DNA from: Candidatus Methanophagales archaeon
GTDB lineage: Archaea; Halobacteriota; Syntropharchaeia; Alkanophagales; Methanospirareceae
Direction of reading: 5' to 3'
Assembly: GCA_030602585.1 (NCBI GenBank)
Contig: JAUVZJ010000001.1
Location: 37,755 to 101,754 of the forward strand
Length of the DNA: 64,000 nucleotides
The translations under genes and the position numbers were made by a program. Shown piece by piece: positions 39,039-49,306 of the stretch (the stretch's first letter is position 1; every line of letters begins with the position of its first letter). The notes below the pieces were generated by a model. That model was given only the letters and a program-made list of their open reading frames with translations. It searched no databases and was not told the DNA's origin.

Positions 39039-39662
39039 ATGTCGCTTTCTTTTTTAACGCAGAAACCAACGAAGATTGTTTTAGTAGGTCTCAATTATAA
39101 AGACCACGCTAAAGAGCTTGGCATGCCGCTGCCATCGGAACCAATACTATTTATGAAGCCAGTTACTGCATTGATAGGTCATGAGGATAGTATTATGTAC
39201 CCGGCGCAGGCTACACGCGTTGATTATGAGGCGGAATTAGCCATTATCATAAAAAATGTGTGCAAAGACATTGAACCTGAAGAGGTTATGGAGCATGTGG
39301 AAGGCTTTACATGTTTGAACGATGTGACAGCTCGCGATTTGCAGAAGAGAGATGGGCAGTGGACACGGGCTAAGAGCTTTGATACGTTCTGCCCAGTCGG
39401 GCCAAGGATCGTTAACGGTATTGATCCCAATAATCTCAAGATTCAGAGTTATCTTAACGGCGAGCTGAGGCAGGATTCGAACACTTCTAATTTTATTTTT
39501 AATGCGGAGGAGCTGGTTTCGTTCGCATCGCACGTGATGACTCTGATGCCCGGGGACATAATCGCAACGGGCACGCCAAGTGGGATTGGCGCGATGAAAA
39601 AGGGTGATACAATAGAAATAAAAATAGAAGGGATAGGGACATTGAGGAATTATGTGGAATAG
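39039..39662 (+). CDS. Fumarylacetoacetate hydrolase (FAH) family protein
   Basis: KIVLVGLNYKDHAKELGMPLPSEPILFMKPVTALIG; DYEAELAIII; ITPGDIIATGTPSGIG-like ending. Confidence 0.95.
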   Translation: MSLSFLTQKPTKIVLVGLNYKDHAKELGMPLPSEPILFMKPVTALIGHEDSIMYPAQATRVDYEAELAIIIKNVCKDIEPEEVMEHVEGFTCLNDVTARDLQKRDGQWTRAKSFDTFCPVGPRIVNGIDPNNLKIQSYLNGELRQDSNTSNFIFNAEELVSFASHVMTLMPGDIIATGTPSGIGAMKKGDTIEIKIEGIGTLRNYVE

Positions 39663-39817
39663 AATGAGGTGAGCACCAAATAACAGAAGAGACTATTATT
39701 CTCAGAATCAGACGGTGCCACTCACTCTAAAACCGCATCATGCAGCTATCTGAACACCTATTCAAAACGCACTGACAACAAAGTTCAAAATCTTCAGACA
39801 ATTACAAATTAAAAAAG

Positions 39818-40798
39818 ATGAAAAGAATTATTTCGATATCCCGTAGAACGGACATTCCCGCATTTTACGGGGACTGGTTTATGAACAGGTTGAAAGAAGG
39901 TTTTGCTGGTTATATCAATCCTTATGGGGGACAAAAATATATTGTATCTCTTAAGCCTGAAGATGTAGTATGCTTTGTTTTCTGGTCTAAAAATTACGCA
40001 CCGTTCATCGATAAATTAAAGACTATTGAGGACATGGGTTATAAATTCTATTTTAACTATACTATAACTGGATTATCCGAGATATTTGAATGTAATGTAA
40101 CATGGGCTATCAATACCTTGAAATTATTAAGCAGAATGTATACACCAAAACAAATAAATTGGAGATACGATCCAATTCTGATTTCAGATTATACAAATTA
40201 TGATTTTCATGTTGAAAGATTTGAATATATTGCCTCTAAATTAGAAGGATATGTCGAGCGCTGCTATTTTAGTTTTGCGATTCAATATGGTAAAGTCAAA
40301 AGCAACTTCGAAAAATTTCAAAAAAACTATGATCTAAAAATTACGGATCCGAATAAAGATTTTAGAATTAAACTCGCAAACGAACTGGCTGGGATTGCTG
40401 CCGGATATGGAATTAAAATGTTTTCATGTTGTGGAGATTATCTGATCGGTCCAAAAATAGAGAAAGCTCATTGTATTAGTGGAAAGATAATCGAAGAATT
40501 ATTCTATAAAAGTGGATTTGAACATCGCGAAAAGCCTACGAGAAAAGAATGTGGTTGTACAGAGAGCACAGATATAGGAACTTATGATACATGCCCAAAC
40601 GGTTGTATTTACTGCTATGCTAACGTGAATAAAATAAGGGCATATAAACAATTTAACAAGCATGATAAAGACGCAACGTTTTTGGGTTACAGCAAAGTGG
40701 AATCCGACGAATGGATAGAAATGGCGAATAATAGGAATAATAAAAGAGATCGCTTTCAAAAGCGTGAGATAGATAAGTTTCAAAGGAAACTGTTTTAA
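39818..40798 (+). CDS. DUF1848 family protein
   Basis: IISISRRTDIPAFYGDWFMNRLKEGF..VVCFVFWSKNYAPF; C-terminal TCPNGCIYCYAN (Cx3Cx2C). Confidence 0.9.
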   Translation: MKRIISISRRTDIPAFYGDWFMNRLKEGFAGYINPYGGQKYIVSLKPEDVVCFVFWSKNYAPFIDKLKTIEDMGYKFYFNYTITGLSEIFECNVTWAINTLKLLSRMYTPKQINWRYDPILISDYTNYDFHVERFEYIASKLEGYVERCYFSFAIQYGKVKSNFEKFQKNYDLKITDPNKDFRIKLANELAGIAAGYGIKMFSCCGDYLIGPKIEKAHCISGKIIEELFYKSGFEHREKPTRKECGCTESTDIGTYDTCPNGCIYCYANVNKIRAYKQFNKHDKDATFLGYSKVESDEWIEMANNRNNKRDRFQKREIDKFQRKLF

Positions 40799-40844
40799 AT
40801 ACTTGAAATAATTCTACATAAGAGAAAATCTCGTAGAAGAACGG

Positions 40845-43826
40845 ATGCGTCTTAATAATAAAATTCTTGAGGAAATTAAGTCCGTATACAGCGACGAAGG
40901 TGTTCTTACACTTTCTGAAGATATCGAGCAGAGTTATTCGTATGCTCTGAATCACATGAGTGGATGTGCAGAATATAATGGCTTCATAGAGGGGTTGAGG
41001 AAGCCCAGTCCTGAGCACATAAACTCCTCTCTGGCAGCTGCAAAAAATATGTATTGTACCCTACCCACGCAATCAAATTTCTTCACGCTCTATTGAATCA
41101 CGAAAGCGAACTTTCTGTTGAGCCAGAAAGAGTATATCATTCTTTTTTAGCCCAGCGGGAACTTCAAATAATAGATATAGGTTCTGGCTATGGAACTATT
41201 CCTTCTGTAGCTATCGATTTCGCCATTCAACATCAGAAGATTCGGAAATCATTAAAATACCCACTTTTTCCCATGAGCATCACGTATATGCCTATTGACC
41301 CTAATTTTGCTCCTCTACAAGTAGGGGATATACTTTTAAAACCCTTAATCCAAACTGCTCATGATTATCTTATCAAAGTAGAAAAAAGCAAAGAGATAAC
41401 TTTACCTTTTCCTGACAATTCATGTATCTCACGTATTGAAGGATCAATGTGTCCTGATTTAGTGAATTATATCACTATGTCAAATGTATTAACTTGGATA
41501 ACCGATGGGATGTACACAACAGAGAAAGCTCAGTAAATTGCGGTGGCTCTTCTTAAAATTTGTAAAAATAATACAAAGCACGAGCAAAATTTAATCTTTA
41601 TAGAACCTAAGCGGGATATGAACAGATCCAATTTTATCACTCGAATTTGTGATTTTTTCCGCGCTCGCGTTTCAAAAATTTTCTTTCCAACTCAGTATTT
41701 CACAAAGCAATTGATATCAATAATAAAGAATTCTGCTCAACAAGTAGTGCGTACTAAATGCGGTTTTGAAAAAGTCACTTTTCGCAATCTCGAGGACTCG
41801 CCATTTAGACAAAAACGTAAACATAAAATAGCCAAAACAGAATTTGCTTATGGTTGGACAGAAATTCCCTCTAAAGGACGTATAATTGGTAAAATATTAG
41901 ATCCAGAAAATATAAGATTGGCTTGGGCCAAAGCTCGGTGGGATAGTTACCGTGAAGATATTCCTATGTTGTTCGAATCAAAGCTATTTGAAGGAAACAT
42001 AGATGAAATGCAATTTTTTGAAGCTAATTTAGACAATATTGCATGCATTTTAGCACATCCTAGTGAGAGAACTTTAAAACTTAGAAGAATTCCTTATCAG
42101 ATACCTAAACGCAAAGGTAAGTTGCGCACTCGCACTATAACTTCACTAGAAGAAAAGATAATTTCTCAAGCCGTTTTAAACATAATAGGCCCCCTAATAG
42201 AAGCAGAGTTTGATAAGCTAGGAGAAAAAGGAGAAACTCAGGATGGCGTGAGCTTTGGATATAGACTTAATTGTCGTGACAAGAAGATTCATCCTTCTGA
42301 ATGGATATTTCGTCCACCTATTTACCGATATAAAAAGCGTATTCAAAATCTTTCCGATAGAATTGAAAGTGCCCCTGATGACTCAGTTGTCCTATTAACA
42401 GACATTGAAAAATTTTACGATTATACCTCAAGAGGAATTATTATCCTTCTTAAAGGATACGTTAAATAAGATTATCCCCAATGAAGAGTCAGAAGTTTAT
42501 AATATATTAGAATTATTAATTTCAACTGACAAAGGGATCGGCATTCCCCAAAGTTCACCATTGCCGCATTTTCTTGCAAATATATATCTTCACAATAAAC
42601 TAGATAAAAAAATTATCAACGACGATCATGTAATGTATTATTCTCGATATGTGGATGATATAGTGGTCATTACTACTAAAAACAGTTTGGCTGATATAAA
42701 GGATAAAATTAAAAATTGGCTATCGCCTTTAAAACTTAATGAGGATGATAAAACTGATGAACTTAATAAAAGGGAGTTCATCGATAAATTAAAAACAGAA
42801 AAGCAAGGTGATCTTAATGAAACGAGTGAAGAGGTTAGAAAAATCATAAAGAAACTATATGTATTACCATTTGGGCTGTATAAAGATTATAAAAAGAATC
42901 CCAATGATTTTTCTATGCGGTATTCGCAAGCTTTATCTTTAATCGGGGTTAATCTCCAAGCAAAATGGTTAAAAAGAAAGTTGAATATTGGAATAATGAA
43001 ATCGGCATGGATATCATTTCGTAAAAAAAGCATGATTAGGAAACTACCTGAAGATGGTAAGGAGGATCAGTGGGCTTCTGAATTCAATAATAGAAACAGC
43101 GAATGGTTAGATAGAAAAAACAAAGTTACGAATAAATCAATCCAAATTTTAGAAGAGGCTGAGGAAAAACTAAGTAGTCACGGTGAAGATAAGATTATGG
43201 AAAGAAGAGCACGATTTGCAATTTATCGTTTAGGCCTTTTAACTAATCCGAGAGTACTCGACCTTATTTTTAAGCTTATTAGGAAGTCTAGCATAGCGCC
43301 AACCGCATTAAGAGCACTTGAAGCATATCCTGAAGCTAGAGCCTTTCTCCAAGATTACATAAAATCTAAACCTTTGCCGTACTTTTCATCCTTGGCGCTC
43401 TTATCGCTAACATGCATAGACAAAGATGCCGCAGCTAAAGAAGCATTTTCAATATTGAACTCGAATAATTTACCAGCATTTCAAAAATATGTTGTTGCAG
43501 AAACACTTTTGAATACACTGACACATCCTGAAAAAGGTGCTATATCCACTATTTACCAAATATGGCATTCTAATAAGACTCCCTCAATAGCTCCTTTTAC
43601 TTCACTTTTATCTGATAAAGAAAAATACAAAAGAGATATAGAAAATAGGGCATTTGATTTAGACGAGGGTTCTTTTGTTAGGTTGTCCTGTCAATTTAGC
43701 TTTTATTATCCTGGAAAAAATCCTTTAGATTTACCTGAAATTGATCCTCCCAATTATAAATCAGAATACTATCCAGTTTTACCACCCATAGGTGGTTATT
43801 ACTATTATGGTGGTTTATTCTCTTAA
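40845..43826 (+). pseudogene. Methyltransferase-like domain + reverse transcriptase + C-terminal helical-repeat fusion, interrupted by a frameshift (~41050), in-frame TAA (41534-41536) and a frameshift (~42421)
   Basis: ORF pieces 40845-41096, 41054-41536, 41543-42469, 42405-43826. SAM-MTase motif LQIIDIGSGYGTIPSVAIDFA and MSNVLTWI..NLIFIEPKRD. RT motifs RRIPYQIPKRKGKLRTRTITSLEEKIISQAVLNIIGP, TDIEKFYD(fs)IPQEE, GIGIPQSSPLPHFLANIYLHNKLD, YSRYVDDIVVI. Helical-repeat-like C-terminus. Confidence 0.85.
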
Positions 43827-44001
43827 GTTCACTTACGCTAACTCGGTCCCAAACGGAGCACGATTGGCTATTAAAGATCAGCCCTATTTATGATACAGTT
43901 ATGTAATTTATGGTGGCATTATTCTGCTCGTGGTACAGGAATGGAAGAGATTGAAATGATAGTTTGTTCGTAAGGTTAGTGCTTTGCAAGTTCCTTTAGA
44001 T

Positions 44002-44046
44002 AGCTGGTTGGAAAATATACCGAAGTATTTATAAGGTACTTCGCTA
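44002..44046. repeat. Palindromic direct repeat, left copy bracketing the R-M cassette
   Basis: AGCTGGTTGGAAAATATACCGAAGTATTTATAAGGTACTTCGCTA; near-identical to 47318-47361. Confidence 0.85.
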
Positions 44047-44225
44047 TTATTTCAATTATGTTCAATGAAGGATTGATTAAAGCGGACCTCGAAGTTCTAC
44101 GACTACTCCTTTATGAAAAGATGAATATATCTCAGATTTTATAGTCCGAAATTGGATAATGTGCAACTTCTTTTATCCGCGAAACGTTATATAAAATTCC
44201 GAACCCGCTTTAAAGAGGTGCGAAG

Positions 44226-44486
44226 ATGAGTAAAGAAAACAAAAAATCAGAAGCAATTAAACGTTTACAATCCTTGCGGAATATTGGTCCAGTTACAGCA
44301 GAGAGACTTTATTCAATCGGGATTGAAACACCAGAACAAATGAAACGTTCTGACCCGGAAGAAATATACGAAAACTTAAAGAAAACGGAAGGTGGGAAAC
44401 TGGATAAATGTGTATTGTATCAACTTCAGGGATCAGTTTTAGAAGTTTGTGGAGCTTCAGAGGGGGTATTGGGAGAGGCGACATGA
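44226..44486 (+). CDS. Helix-hairpin-helix protein (Cdd1/TfoX-C-like)
   Basis: LQSLRNIGPVTAERLYSIGIETPEQMKRSDPEEIYENLKKTEGGKLDKCVLYQLQGSV. Confidence 0.75.
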   Translation: MSKENKKSEAIKRLQSLRNIGPVTAERLYSIGIETPEQMKRSDPEEIYENLKKTEGGKLDKCVLYQLQGSVLEVCGASEGVLGEAT

Positions 44487-44543
44487 GTGTGAGATATTGG
44501 TAAAAAGCAACAATATCTTTAATCTCTAACTTAATCTTTTATT

Positions 44544-45488
44544 ATGGACCTGTTTGAAAATATCTTGTCGGTTTCAGTTGAAGAGATTGAACTAGAATTG
44601 AGAGGTTTTTCAAAAATACCCTGGTTCGATTATTGGTTGAACCCTAGAAGGTTAAGAGGAAGCGACTTTTTGATGAGATGGTCACAAGGAGTCTGGAGTG
44701 AACATAGATTGGAACAAGCTGTGAACGAAACGGGAAAATACTATGCAGTTCCTTATGGACCAAGTGGAGTTGCACCAACAGACGATGTTAGAGAATTTGA
44801 ATTATATTTTGAACGGTTAGATAAAGCAGGACACGGTAATATTAAACGGCCAGATCTTTTGATTTTCAAAAAAAGCGATCAAAACATAATTGATAGTTTT
44901 ATAAGGGATTTAGGAGGAATTGAAGAACTACCATTTATTGAAGAAGAAAAGTTAAACATCTTATTAGATAAATCTTTGATTGCAGTAGAGTGTGAAAATA
45001 GTCTTTGGAAGGCTGAAAAAATGCCCGATTTCAACTCTGAACTTAAACCCTATAAACGGTTAGGAGGAAAATTAGGATTGAAAAAAAACGCTGTCCTCCC
45101 TACTGTTATACTAAAAGAAGAAGATAGAGGACCTCTTTTTGATTGGCAAAATAGTAACGGTATTAAAATCCATATCTGGCACGTTTTCTATGACAGAGCT
45201 TATGGACTGTCACTAGATGACGCCCAGAGATTAATTGATGAAGGTTTAATTGAAACAACAATCCAAATCTTTCAAGCTCCCGGTGGAGCAACAACGAAAA
45301 AGGGCATCTATAAAATTTATTATCACTACGCATACCCAGTAGGCGTTTCAGAAGAAGAACCAGAGCTAGAATCAGCATATATAGAAGATAAAAATGGTCA
45401 CATCTTACCCTACGTGAAATTTAAAGGAGGAAAACTGAAACTTCTCTCCGAAGCATTAAAAGTTTTAGAGGAAGCAAACACTAGATAA
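44544..45488 (+). CDS. Restriction endonuclease, AccI-like
   Basis: WFDYWLNPRRLRGSDFLMRWSQGVWSEHRL...; PD-(D/E)xK-like KRPDLLIF..IAVECENSLWKAEKM; directly precedes an N6-MTase gene. Confidence 0.65.
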   Translation: MDLFENILSVSVEEIELELRGFSKIPWFDYWLNPRRLRGSDFLMRWSQGVWSEHRLEQAVNETGKYYAVPYGPSGVAPTDDVREFELYFERLDKAGHGNIKRPDLLIFKKSDQNIIDSFIRDLGGIEELPFIEEEKLNILLDKSLIAVECENSLWKAEKMPDFNSELKPYKRLGGKLGLKKNAVLPTVILKEEDRGPLFDWQNSNGIKIHIWHVFYDRAYGLSLDDAQRLIDEGLIETTIQIFQAPGGATTKKGIYKIYYHYAYPVGVSEEEPELESAYIEDKNGHILPYVKFKGGKLKLLSEALKVLEEANTR

Positions 45489-45489
45489 A

Positions 45490-47022
45490 ATGAATGTAAC
45501 CCAAAAACTACACCAAAAACTCCCTCAAAACTGGGACGAAAGAGAAAAGCTACGAGAGAAAGGACAATTCTGGACACCTAAATGGGTTGCAGAAGCTATG
45601 ATTGCTTATTTAGTTGAGGATACAGATTTGATTTTTGACCCTGCAGTGGGTAATGGAGCTTTTTATAATGCATTAAAAAACCTACAACCTAAATCAAATA
45701 AAAAAATAACATTTTATGGTAATGATGTAGACGAAAATGTAATTAAAGAAGGTATAGAGGAGGGCATATTTGATTCAGATTTTATATTTGAACTGAATGA
45801 TTTTATCATCTCACCACCTAATAGACAATTCAAAGCCATAGTTGCAAATCCGCCATATATACGCCATCATAGATTACCTTTACATATAAAAAATAAATTG
45901 AAAAAAATAAGTCTAAAAATTATGGGATTTACACTTGACGGACGTGCTGGGTTGCATATTTATTTTTTAATTCGAGCACTTGACCTATTAGAGCCAAACG
46001 GTAGGTTAGCTTTTATTATGCCTGCAGATACTTGTGAAGGTATATTTGCAAAAAAGCTTTGGAATTGGATTGCAAATAAGTATTGTTTAGAATCGGTGGT
46101 CACTTTTTTACCCGAAGCTACTCCTTTCCCAAAGGTTGATACCAATGCTGTGGTATTTTTGGTCAAAAATAAAAAAGCATCTAAAACTTTTTTTTGGGTT
46201 AGATGTGAACAAGTTTATTCAAATGACCTAAAAGAGTTTATCCTATCTGGATTTGAAGAGAAAGACTTTCAGACTTTAACTATCATAAAGCGAGATCTAG
46301 ATGAGGCATTGATAACGGGATTATCTAGATACCCCAACAACGAAACATATTCAAAATATCGTTTAATAGATTTTGCTGAAGTAATGCGTGGTATCGCAAC
46401 TGGCTCGAATGAGTTTTTCTTTTTAACAAAAAAACGAGCTGAAGAGTTAGAAATACCTGAGGAATTTTTGATCCCTGCAATAGGTAGAACAAGAGATGTA
46501 AATGGAGTCACAATAACTAAACAAACTTTGTTAGAATTAGAAAAAAAAGGCCGACCCACTTTATTATTTTCTCCTGATGGAAGAAGACTTAAAGATTTTC
46601 CAATTAAAGTTCAGGAATATTTATTAAATGGAGAAAAACAAGGAATTAACAAAAAAACATTAATTGCTACCAGAAAACCTTGGTATAAAATGGAACAAAG
46701 GGAAATTCCAAAATTTTTATTTGCATATTTAGGTCGAAGAAACGCACGATTTATAAAAAATGAGGCGGGGGTTGTTCCTTTAACTGGTTTTTTATGTGTA
46801 TATCCCAAATCAAACGATACAGGATATGTTGAGAAATTGGGGGAGATATTAAAACATCCAGACACCGTGGAAAATTTATCATTAGTCGGTAAAAGTTATG
46901 GTGGTGGTGCAATTAAAGTTGAACCACGGGCATTAGAAAATCTACCAATCCCCGAATATATTATCAAAAAATTTGACCTTACTCTAGAACACACATCAAT
47001 ACAAACGTTTTTGCCTCTTTGA
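45490..47022 (+). CDS. N6-adenine DNA methyltransferase (type II, Eco57I/TaqI-like)
   Basis: REKGQFWTPKWVAEAMIAYLVE..IFDPAVGNGAFYNAL; AIVANPPYIRHHRL. Confidence 0.92.
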   Translation: MNVTQKLHQKLPQNWDEREKLREKGQFWTPKWVAEAMIAYLVEDTDLIFDPAVGNGAFYNALKNLQPKSNKKITFYGNDVDENVIKEGIEEGIFDSDFIFELNDFIISPPNRQFKAIVANPPYIRHHRLPLHIKNKLKKISLKIMGFTLDGRAGLHIYFLIRALDLLEPNGRLAFIMPADTCEGIFAKKLWNWIANKYCLESVVTFLPEATPFPKVDTNAVVFLVKNKKASKTFFWVRCEQVYSNDLKEFILSGFEEKDFQTLTIIKRDLDEALITGLSRYPNNETYSKYRLIDFAEVMRGIATGSNEFFFLTKKRAEELEIPEEFLIPAIGRTRDVNGVTITKQTLLELEKKGRPTLLFSPDGRRLKDFPIKVQEYLLNGEKQGINKKTLIATRKPWYKMEQREIPKFLFAYLGRRNARFIKNEAGVVPLTGFLCVYPKSNDTGYVEKLGEILKHPDTVENLSLVGKSYGGGAIKVEPRALENLPIPEYIIKKFDLTLEHTSIQTFLPL

Positions 47023-47317
47023 ATAATCGGGCAGGGGAGTTAAGCTTCTCGACTTAAACTCCTAACGTGTTACACACAAGACCGAACCTTTATATCCTTT
47101 ATAACCAGTAAAGGTAAGATATGAACATAAGTGGAAAGCCGAAAACCTTCTGGACTTGCTTGGTTTTATTTGTTGTCGGCGTTGTGATTGCAGTAAATAC
47201 TTGCCATTATCCTTAGCTGCTTAAAATTAATTCAAATGTTCCTCTATTCAGCTCTACTCCTTTATTGCTCTGCATTTCTGAGAATTTACGAAATAAAGCG
47301 AATGTTATAGGTATTAT

Positions 47318-47361
47318 GAGCTGTTGGAAAATATACCGAAGTATTTATATAGTACTTCGCT
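47318..47361. repeat. Palindromic direct repeat, right copy bracketing the R-M cassette
   Basis: AGCTGTTGGAAAATATACCGAAGTATTTATATAGTACTTCGCTA. Confidence 0.85.
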
Positions 47362-47454
47362 AGAATCAGATGATGGCTGCAGATTTGACATATTTATGAA
47401 TAAGGTTTGTAATAGCTTAGATATCCTAATATAACACTCAGTGTTCAAAGATAC

Positions 47455-47467
47455 CTATCACTGATAG
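47455..47467. promoter_or_regulatory. Palindrome CTATCA-C-TGATAG upstream of ilvD, possible regulator site
   Basis: Perfect odd palindrome; second TATCA-N8-TGATA at 47479-47496. Confidence 0.35.
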
Positions 47468-47656
47468 TTATATATACGTATCACTTTATACTGATAATTG
47501 GAACGTATTCCTGATAATCTTGATGCATTAACAAAATACGGAAAAATGGGCCGAGAAACAGCACATGAAACCTGTAATAAGCTATTGTTATTATTATAAT
47601 AGCCATAACACTGACTATCACAACTATTTATAGCACGTGTTGCTTTTTAATCTTGG

Positions 47657-49306
47657 GTGATGATTATGCATTCAGACATATTAAAACAAAACATCGAGAC
47701 TTTGCCGCACCGCGCTTTATTAATGTCCGCAGGCGTAAAAGAAGAAGATTTTGACTTAGACAAACCTTTTATCGGTGTTGCAAATAGTTATAACAACATT
47801 ATTCCGGGGCATATTCACCTGAATGAACTAACGCGTGAGGTAAAGAGAGGAATTAGAGATGCAGGCGGAGTTCCATTAGAATGGGGCGTCCCTGGTGTCT
47901 GTGATGGCATCGCAATGTTTGTAGAAATGAGATTGTCTCTCCCAAGCAGAGAGCATATTGCAGATAACATCGAAATAATGACATTATCGCATTCTATGGA
48001 TGGCTGGGTTGGCGTAACAAATTGCGATAAAATTACGCCCGGGATGTTAATGGCTGCGGGTCGTCTTAATTTACCGGCAATTATGCTTACCGGTGGACCG
48101 ATGAAAGCAAATATCGTAGAAGGAAAGAAGCACCATCCCATTGAAGGCTTTGGTGTCGTTGGTCAGGTTAAAGGAGGTGTGATAAGTGCGGAAGAAGCGG
48201 AAAAAATGCTTCCGCTTATGGTTTGCGGTGCAGGTTCTTGTGTCGGACTTTTTACTGCAAATACCATGGCTGTTGTTACTGAGGTATTGGGCATGTCACT
48301 GACGAAATGCGCAACGACCCTGGCGATAGACCCGGTGAAGAAAAAACAAGCGTATGAATCAGGAAGAAGAATCGTAGAACTGGTTAAAGAAGATATTAAG
48401 CCACGCGATATAATGACAAAAAATGCATTCGAGAATGCAATAAGGGTTGATATGACGATGGGTGGGTCAACAAATACTGTTTTACATATCCCCGCGGTAG
48501 CCAGAGAAGCGGGCGTTGATATAAACGTAGATATGTTCGATGAGATATCAAGCGAGACGCCGAATTTATGTAAGATAATCCCAGTGGGGACTCATGAGAT
48601 GGCAGACGTTGACAGAGCAGGTGGCATTCCCGCAGTTCTTAACCGCTTAAAGGATATGATAAACGATTCACCAACGGTAAATGGAAAATCAATAAAGGAG
48701 ATAGCAGAAGAAGGAAAAGTGCTGGATGACGATGTTATCCGAACTTTGGATAACGCATACTTTTCTGAAGGCGGTATAGCGGTATTAAAAGGAAACATTG
48801 CGAACAGCGCAGTAATAAAGCAAACCGCGGTTGACAAAGAGATGATGGTTCATTCAGGTCATGCTAAGGTGTTCTACACTGAAAAAGATTTGTTAGATGC
48901 GATAGAAGCGAAAAGGATTGTTGAAGGTGATGTTATCGTGCTACCATTCCAGGGCCCAGCGGGTGCACCGGGAATGCCGGAAATGCTGACGCCAACCGAT
49001 GCGATAATGGGTGCAGGCTATAAAAGGGTGGCGCTAATCACTGACGGCAGATTCTCAGGTGCTACCACCGGTCCTTGTATTGGGCACGTTGAGATGGAAG
49101 CGTATAATGGTGGTGCAATCGCCGCAATAAAAGATGGTGATATCGTTGAGATTGATATTCCAAACAGAACGCTTGATGTAAAATTAAGCGATGCTGAAAT
49201 TGAAGAGCGGTTGAAGCATGTTAAAGCACCAGAACGAAAACTTACGCCGTTATTAGAATCATACCGGAAGAAGTTTACTGGCGTTAATTGTTATGGTAAA
49301 AAGTAA
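47657..49306 (+). CDS. ilvD: Dihydroxy-acid dehydratase
   Basis: HRALLMSAGVKEEDF..KPFIGVANSYNNIIPGHIHL; MGGSTNTVLHIPA; LITDGRFSGATTGPCIGHVEMEAYNGGAIAAIKDGD. Confidence 0.97.
   Translation: MMIMHSDILKQNIETLPHRALLMSAGVKEEDFDLDKPFIGVANSYNNIIPGHIHLNELTREVKRGIRDAGGVPLEWGVPGVCDGIAMFVEMRLSLPSREHIADNIEIMTLSHSMDGWVGVTNCDKITPGMLMAAGRLNLPAIMLTGGPMKANIVEGKKHHPIEGFGVVGQVKGGVISAEEAEKMLPLMVCGAGSCVGLFTANTMAVVTEVLGMSLTKCATTLAIDPVKKKQAYESGRRIVELVKEDIKPRDIMTKNAFENAIRVDMTMGGSTNTVLHIPAVAREAGVDINVDMFDEISSETPNLCKIIPVGTHEMADVDRAGGIPAVLNRLKDMINDSPTVNGKSIKEIAEEGKVLDDDVIRTLDNAYFSEGGIAVLKGNIANSAVIKQTAVDKEMMVHSGHAKVFYTEKDLLDAIEAKRIVEGDVIVLPFQGPAGAPGMPEMLTPTDAIMGAGYKRVALITDGRFSGATTGPCIGHVEMEAYNGGAIAAIKDGDIVEIDIPNRTLDVKLSDAEIEERLKHVKAPERKLTPLLESYRKKFTGVNCYGKK

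Follow-up and report, generated by a model that had tools for sequence, protein, structure and literature searches.

What was the run of four open reading frames (ORFs) at 40845-43826 in this 64,000-nucleotide stretch of a Candidatus Methanophagales genome (hereafter the window), and what might it once have done together with its neighbors? An initial annotation took the pieces to be a single protein, a methyltransferase fused to a reverse transcriptase (RT) and a helical repeat region, and proposed it as a candidate undescribed system whose surroundings fit a role in defense. The reading favored here, at a probability of roughly 0.7, is that the locus is a decayed two-gene module and a candidate defense system, consisting of a UG35/UG25-type RT with a SAM-methyltransferase-like domain and a DUF1848 protein.

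The broken fusion gene and its family

All four ORFs were confirmed on the forward strand (40845-41096, 41054-41536, 41543-42469 and 42405-43826). The gene that they span carries two frame changes, near 41053-41057 and near 42424, and one in-frame TAA at 41534-41536, which is all that divides the second and third pieces, since these share a frame. Read through, with an X placed at each break (994 letters), it specifies a product of about 990 aa leading from a SAM-methyltransferase-like N-terminus through a reverse transcriptase to a helical C-terminus. The features of the locus are:

39818..40798, + strand: DUF1848 partner gene, intact, 326 aa, with a radical-SAM-like CxxxCxxC near the C-terminus (PF08902, 293 bits; RTasDUF1848, 208 bits)
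40845..41053, + strand: RT gene, N-terminal helical region (a 76-aa relic in genome G004 is 42% identical); frame change follows, near 41053-41057
41057..41533, + strand: RT gene, class I SAM-methyltransferase-like domain with DIGSGYGT, IDPN and MSNVLTWI (RT_UG25 E 1.4e-3 for this piece alone; homologue alignment)
41534..41536, + strand: in-frame TAA within the RT gene (ORF and frame reading)
41537..42424, + strand: RT gene, last part of the methyltransferase-like domain, then the N-terminal half of the RT up to and including motif A, TDIEKFYD (RT_UG35, 75.9 bits); frame change follows
42423..43826, + strand: RT gene, C-terminal half of the RT with YVDD, and helical, HEAT-like C-terminus (RT_UG35, 130 bits; RVT_1 weak)
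44226..44486, + strand: small helix-hairpin-helix protein, Cdd1/TfoX_C-like (the same interval of G004 has a copy about 89% identical)
44544..47022, + strand: Type II restriction-modification (R-M) cassette, AccI-like endonuclease and Eco57I-like methylase (Eco57I/N6), in the same GC-poor island

The read-through protein is matched collinearly across the breaks by one profile, RT_UG35 of PADLOC (PDLC03774; residues 43-821 against positions 30-768 of 938, 238 bits, E 4.7e-71), which shows that the pieces are one gene, as had been proposed, rather than a chance succession; the C-terminus alone still scores 36 bits. RT_UG25 (PDLC03763) comes second (residues 23-843, 171 bits), 67 bits lower for this copy. 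The remaining PADLOC models reach at most 72 bits, the score of the best of them, Drt3a, and the lead of UG35 over every RT model except UG25 exceeds 160 bits. The NCBIfam equivalogs for Drt2 and Drt3a were not reached (46.5 vs 390 and 58.6 vs 200 bits).

The intact homologues to be sought for this fusion were found in Bacillota_A, the phylum of Candidatus Borkfalkia: loci L179 (929 aa) and L180 (940 aa) have unbroken RT genes with the same N-terminal domain and an adjoining DUF1848 gene. The junction between the methyltransferase-like domain and the RT is genuine, and both of these proteins have it. In tblastn searches the window protein is covered over residues 99-847 in L179 and 99-832 in L180, so the homology extends through the methyltransferase-like region. 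The first 240-290 residues of L178, L179 and L180, taken alone, match both RT_UG25 (E 1.1e-16, 4.6e-29 and 5.6e-24) and RT_UG35 (E 1.7e-13, 4.2e-16 and 8.1e-11), indicating that both models contain this domain and that the fusion belongs to these catalogued families. RT_UG25 is the best model for L179 and L180, and the two score nearly equally for L178.

The novelty of the architecture consequently falls away: the PADLOC models already cover the N-terminal domain, and a model exists for the DUF1848 partner as well. The initial annotation had itself named a known DRT class of the same architecture as the finding that would count against it, and UG35/UG25 in PADLOC are such a class.

The motifs quoted for the protein are present in the window, and TDIEKFYD, YVDD, DIGSGYGT and MSNxxxW are conserved among homologues. 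The “Rossmann SAM-methyltransferase” label for the N-terminus holds in part. In the alignment of the archaeal and Bacillota_A proteins the common elements are DxGxGxGT, an acidic residue-P pair beyond the second strand, and a downstream M-x-N-x3-W, and one homologue, L179, passes the curated Methyltransf_28 cut-off (24.6 vs 23.3 bits), with L178, L180 and L222 matching below it; the window copy itself has no support from a Pfam methyltransferase family. A profile of the domain scores 36 against the window's unrelated UbiE-like methyltransferase, compared with a maximum of 22.7 in 100 shuffles of another sequence. The N-terminal domain had no significant match among solved structures in the PDB, and a single-sequence AlphaFold model of the window copy was without confidence (pLDDT 37). 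The domain is called methyltransferase-like here, and it is probably SAM-binding. At the other end of the protein, the description of a HEAT-like helical C-terminus stands as to “helical”; HEAT matches lie below threshold everywhere (best 23.8 vs 27.7 bits).

The DUF1848 partner and its surroundings

The gene at 39818-40798 was overlooked in the initial annotation. Its end and the start of the RT gene are 46 bases apart, and its product covers the whole of the PADLOC profile RTasDUF1848 (PDLC03815), which PADLOC files under DRT. The CxxxCxxC motif is invariant among eight DUF1848 homologues, and it is here that the homologues weakly match the beginning of the Radical_SAM profile. An AlphaFold model built with 14 sequences is of moderate confidence (pLDDT 78, pTM 0.80); its best structural matches are barrel-type enzymes, weak and without significance, and none of the leading matches is a radical SAM enzyme.

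DUF1848 adjoins the RT in five of the six Bacillota_A homologues, and in 6/6 evaluable RT loci when the archaeon is counted; the sixth Bacillota_A homologue, L181, lacks one flank, and the other flank is without DUF1848. The gene lies directly upstream of the RT in L180, L222 and the window, and directly downstream in L177, L178 and L179. It is also found without the RT: no RT of the UG25/UG35 kind was near any of 15 DUF1848 loci on viral contigs. In the archaeal family, only six of 51 genomes have a DUF1848 gene (E <= 1e-50).

The proposed defense-like context is borne out: the neighboring R-M cassette was identified as an AccI-like endonuclease with an Eco57I/N6 methylase, and the segment from DUF1848 to this cassette is GC-poor (34% vs 41%). 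Third-position GC is 0.26 in the main RT pieces and 0.26-0.30 in most coding pieces of the island (outliers: the methylase, 0.22, and the short first RT piece, 0.41), and about 0.5 in the flanking ilvB, ilvN and FAH genes. The Cdd1/TfoX_C-like protein between the RT gene and the cassette is probably outside the RT system. The island is located between FAH and ilvD, an interval that carries other genes in genomes G001 and G004 and is thus a variable site. The intervals compared were 39662-47657 of the window, L249:6226-9769 and L250:3708-9250; the window holds R-M and RT genes here, and G001 a radical SAM-like protein and others.

Distribution and decay of the RT gene

RT homologues were found in five of 339 Bacillota_A genomes (E <= 1e-25), with one further homologue in the order of G1444. 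No other full-length copy was found in the sampled genomes of the source family and phylum, nor by UG35 searches of 397 Halobacteriota genomes, 399 Pseudomonadota genomes (strict E <= 1e-30) or 349 Chloroflexota genomes (strict E <= 1e-22; one UG19-type RT was found). Plasmid, phage and viral-contig searches gave unrelated RTs only, an apparent long-N-terminus match at L105 proved spurious, and a motif scan of genome contigs, with a motif that was over-specific, returned nine chance matches only. Among the plasmid sequences, p355 of Bacillus toyonensis encodes a reverse transcriptase of the UG10_large type, 1879 aa long and PrimPol-like at its N-terminus (L044:2627-8266).

Of the seven further copies that were found, L179 and L180 alone are full-length and unbroken. 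Breaks interrupt the gene in the window and in L178, L222 and L181, and in L177 it is truncated at the 5' end by a deletion relative to L178; the two loci are 90% identical in DNA, and about 1.4 kb of the 5' part of the gene is missing from L177. In G004, which represents another genus of the archaeal family, 76 residues of the RT N-terminus are left behind the same DUF1848 gene, and the outer neighbors of this pair differ from those in the window. DUF1848 genes stay open where RT genes break. Programmed frameshifting was considered and dropped, because the position of the breaks varies from genome to genome. Single broken cases may be draft-genome errors, and such frequent loss of the RT fits a costly, abortive-type gene.

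In the window the catalytic residues DIEKF and YVDD are both present, in different frames of the broken gene. With motif A and motif C so divided, RT activity is very unlikely, and judging from the reading frames the RT of this archaeon is almost certainly inactive, leaving DUF1848 as the only part that could still act.

RT-free loci, alternative readings and known systems

In two ANME-1-like relatives (L185:5703-7540 in G286, L186:599-2433 in G295) the DUF1848 gene follows, with an overlap, a free-standing methyltransferase-like gene of about 290 aa, and there is no RT. A methyltransferase model of PADLOC recognizes the 290-aa protein (E 4e-5 to 8e-5). Its alignment score against the RT N-terminal domain is 41.6, where an unrelated methyltransferase scores 36, so a specific homology between the two is only suggestive. 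DUF1848 may accordingly act together with a methyltransferase, whether joined to an RT or separate, and these gene pairs could represent the module in a form that lacks the RT. Elsewhere, in G014 (L184:1-850), DUF1848 is preceded by what seem to be only short end pieces of that same methyltransferase gene, with the middle as if deleted, and in G022, G295 and G004 (L182, L183, L187) it directly follows the GMP synthase gene guaA.

Several other readings of the window locus have to be weighed. That the RT derives from a group II intron or a retron, with a chance upstream domain, is hardly credible: the RT core gives group II maturase matches of 24-35 bits, far under the 300-bit cut-off of group_II_RT_mat, there is no maturase or endonuclease Pfam domain (as the initial annotation had stated), and both the UG35/UG25 placement and an N-terminal domain common to intact homologues speak directly against it. 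Little more can be said for the RT and DUF1848 being mere neighbors in a defense island, with DUF1848 a housekeeping or otherwise separate gene; DUF1848 does occur alone, and the pair is seen in both gene orders, but direct adjacency in all six evaluable RT loci and the absence of the RT from all 15 control DUF1848 loci make this very improbable. Assembly errors in a gene that is functional in this archaeon would be more natural in a draft genome such as this one (2.05 Mb, 89 contigs); against them stand three lesions within one gene among open neighbors, independent breaks at different sites in several relatives and the reduction to 76 aa in G004, so that this too is distinctly unlikely.

Another possibility is that the module serves genome maintenance, with nucleic acid that is damaged or modified as the substrate of DUF1848 and the methyltransferase domain, and the RT filling in or copying it. 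The overlapping DUF1848-methyltransferase pairs without an RT, together with the guaA neighbors in three other relatives, do mean that the role of DUF1848 need not be defense, and its gene remains open where the RT is broken; but the patchy distribution, the GC-poor island adjoining R-M genes and the PADLOC filing under DRT point the other way, and loss this frequent would not be expected of a repair gene, making maintenance an unlikely purpose for the whole. Somewhat less doubtful, though still speculative, is a new form of RT immunity in which the fused methyltransferase and a radical-SAM partner modify the DNA, its template or its primer, and in which the pair works without the RT as well.

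Under the favored reading, that of a decayed defense module, the RT of the intact relatives would make DNA in response to infection, held or gated by the helical C-terminus as in other UG/Abi enzymes. The presence of two SAM-type domains suggests nucleic-acid modification: their target might be that DNA, the RNA template or a priming protein, and the outcome could be an anti-phage or abortive response. How would synthesis start? A search for a shared non-coding RNA was negative, and Abi-type class 1 RTs are reported to carry out protein-primed, untemplated DNA synthesis (PMC12632851); by analogy, a protein primer would be our guess at the likelier starting point. A literature search found no published experiment on UG25, UG35 or DUF1848, so the assignment to defense rests on family membership and context.

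With the claim of an undescribed architecture removed, what is left is a catalogued family whose mechanism is without explanation, and a little-studied module that pairs an RT/methyltransferase-like fusion with a radical-SAM-like protein and occurs in both an archaeon and Bacillota_A. Direct tests are within reach, given the unbroken operons of Bacillota_A and the methyltransferase-DUF1848 pairs that have no RT.

Among known systems, PADLOC's RT_UG35 is like the window protein in its N-terminal domain, RT and helical C-terminus, in collinear order; the window protein differs in being distant from the profile (238 bits over 938 positions), broken and unmatched at its extreme C-terminus. RT_UG25 likewise matches the methyltransferase-like domain alone in three homologues, although the window copy prefers UG35. 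The RTasDUF1848 pairing is reproduced here with the partner upstream of the RT, where some relatives have it downstream. The class 1 Abi RTs (AbiK/AbiA) share with the window protein an RT with a helical C-terminus; to our knowledge they have neither the methyltransferase-like domain nor a DUF1848 partner, and we know of no DRT mechanism that uses methylation or radical SAM chemistry.
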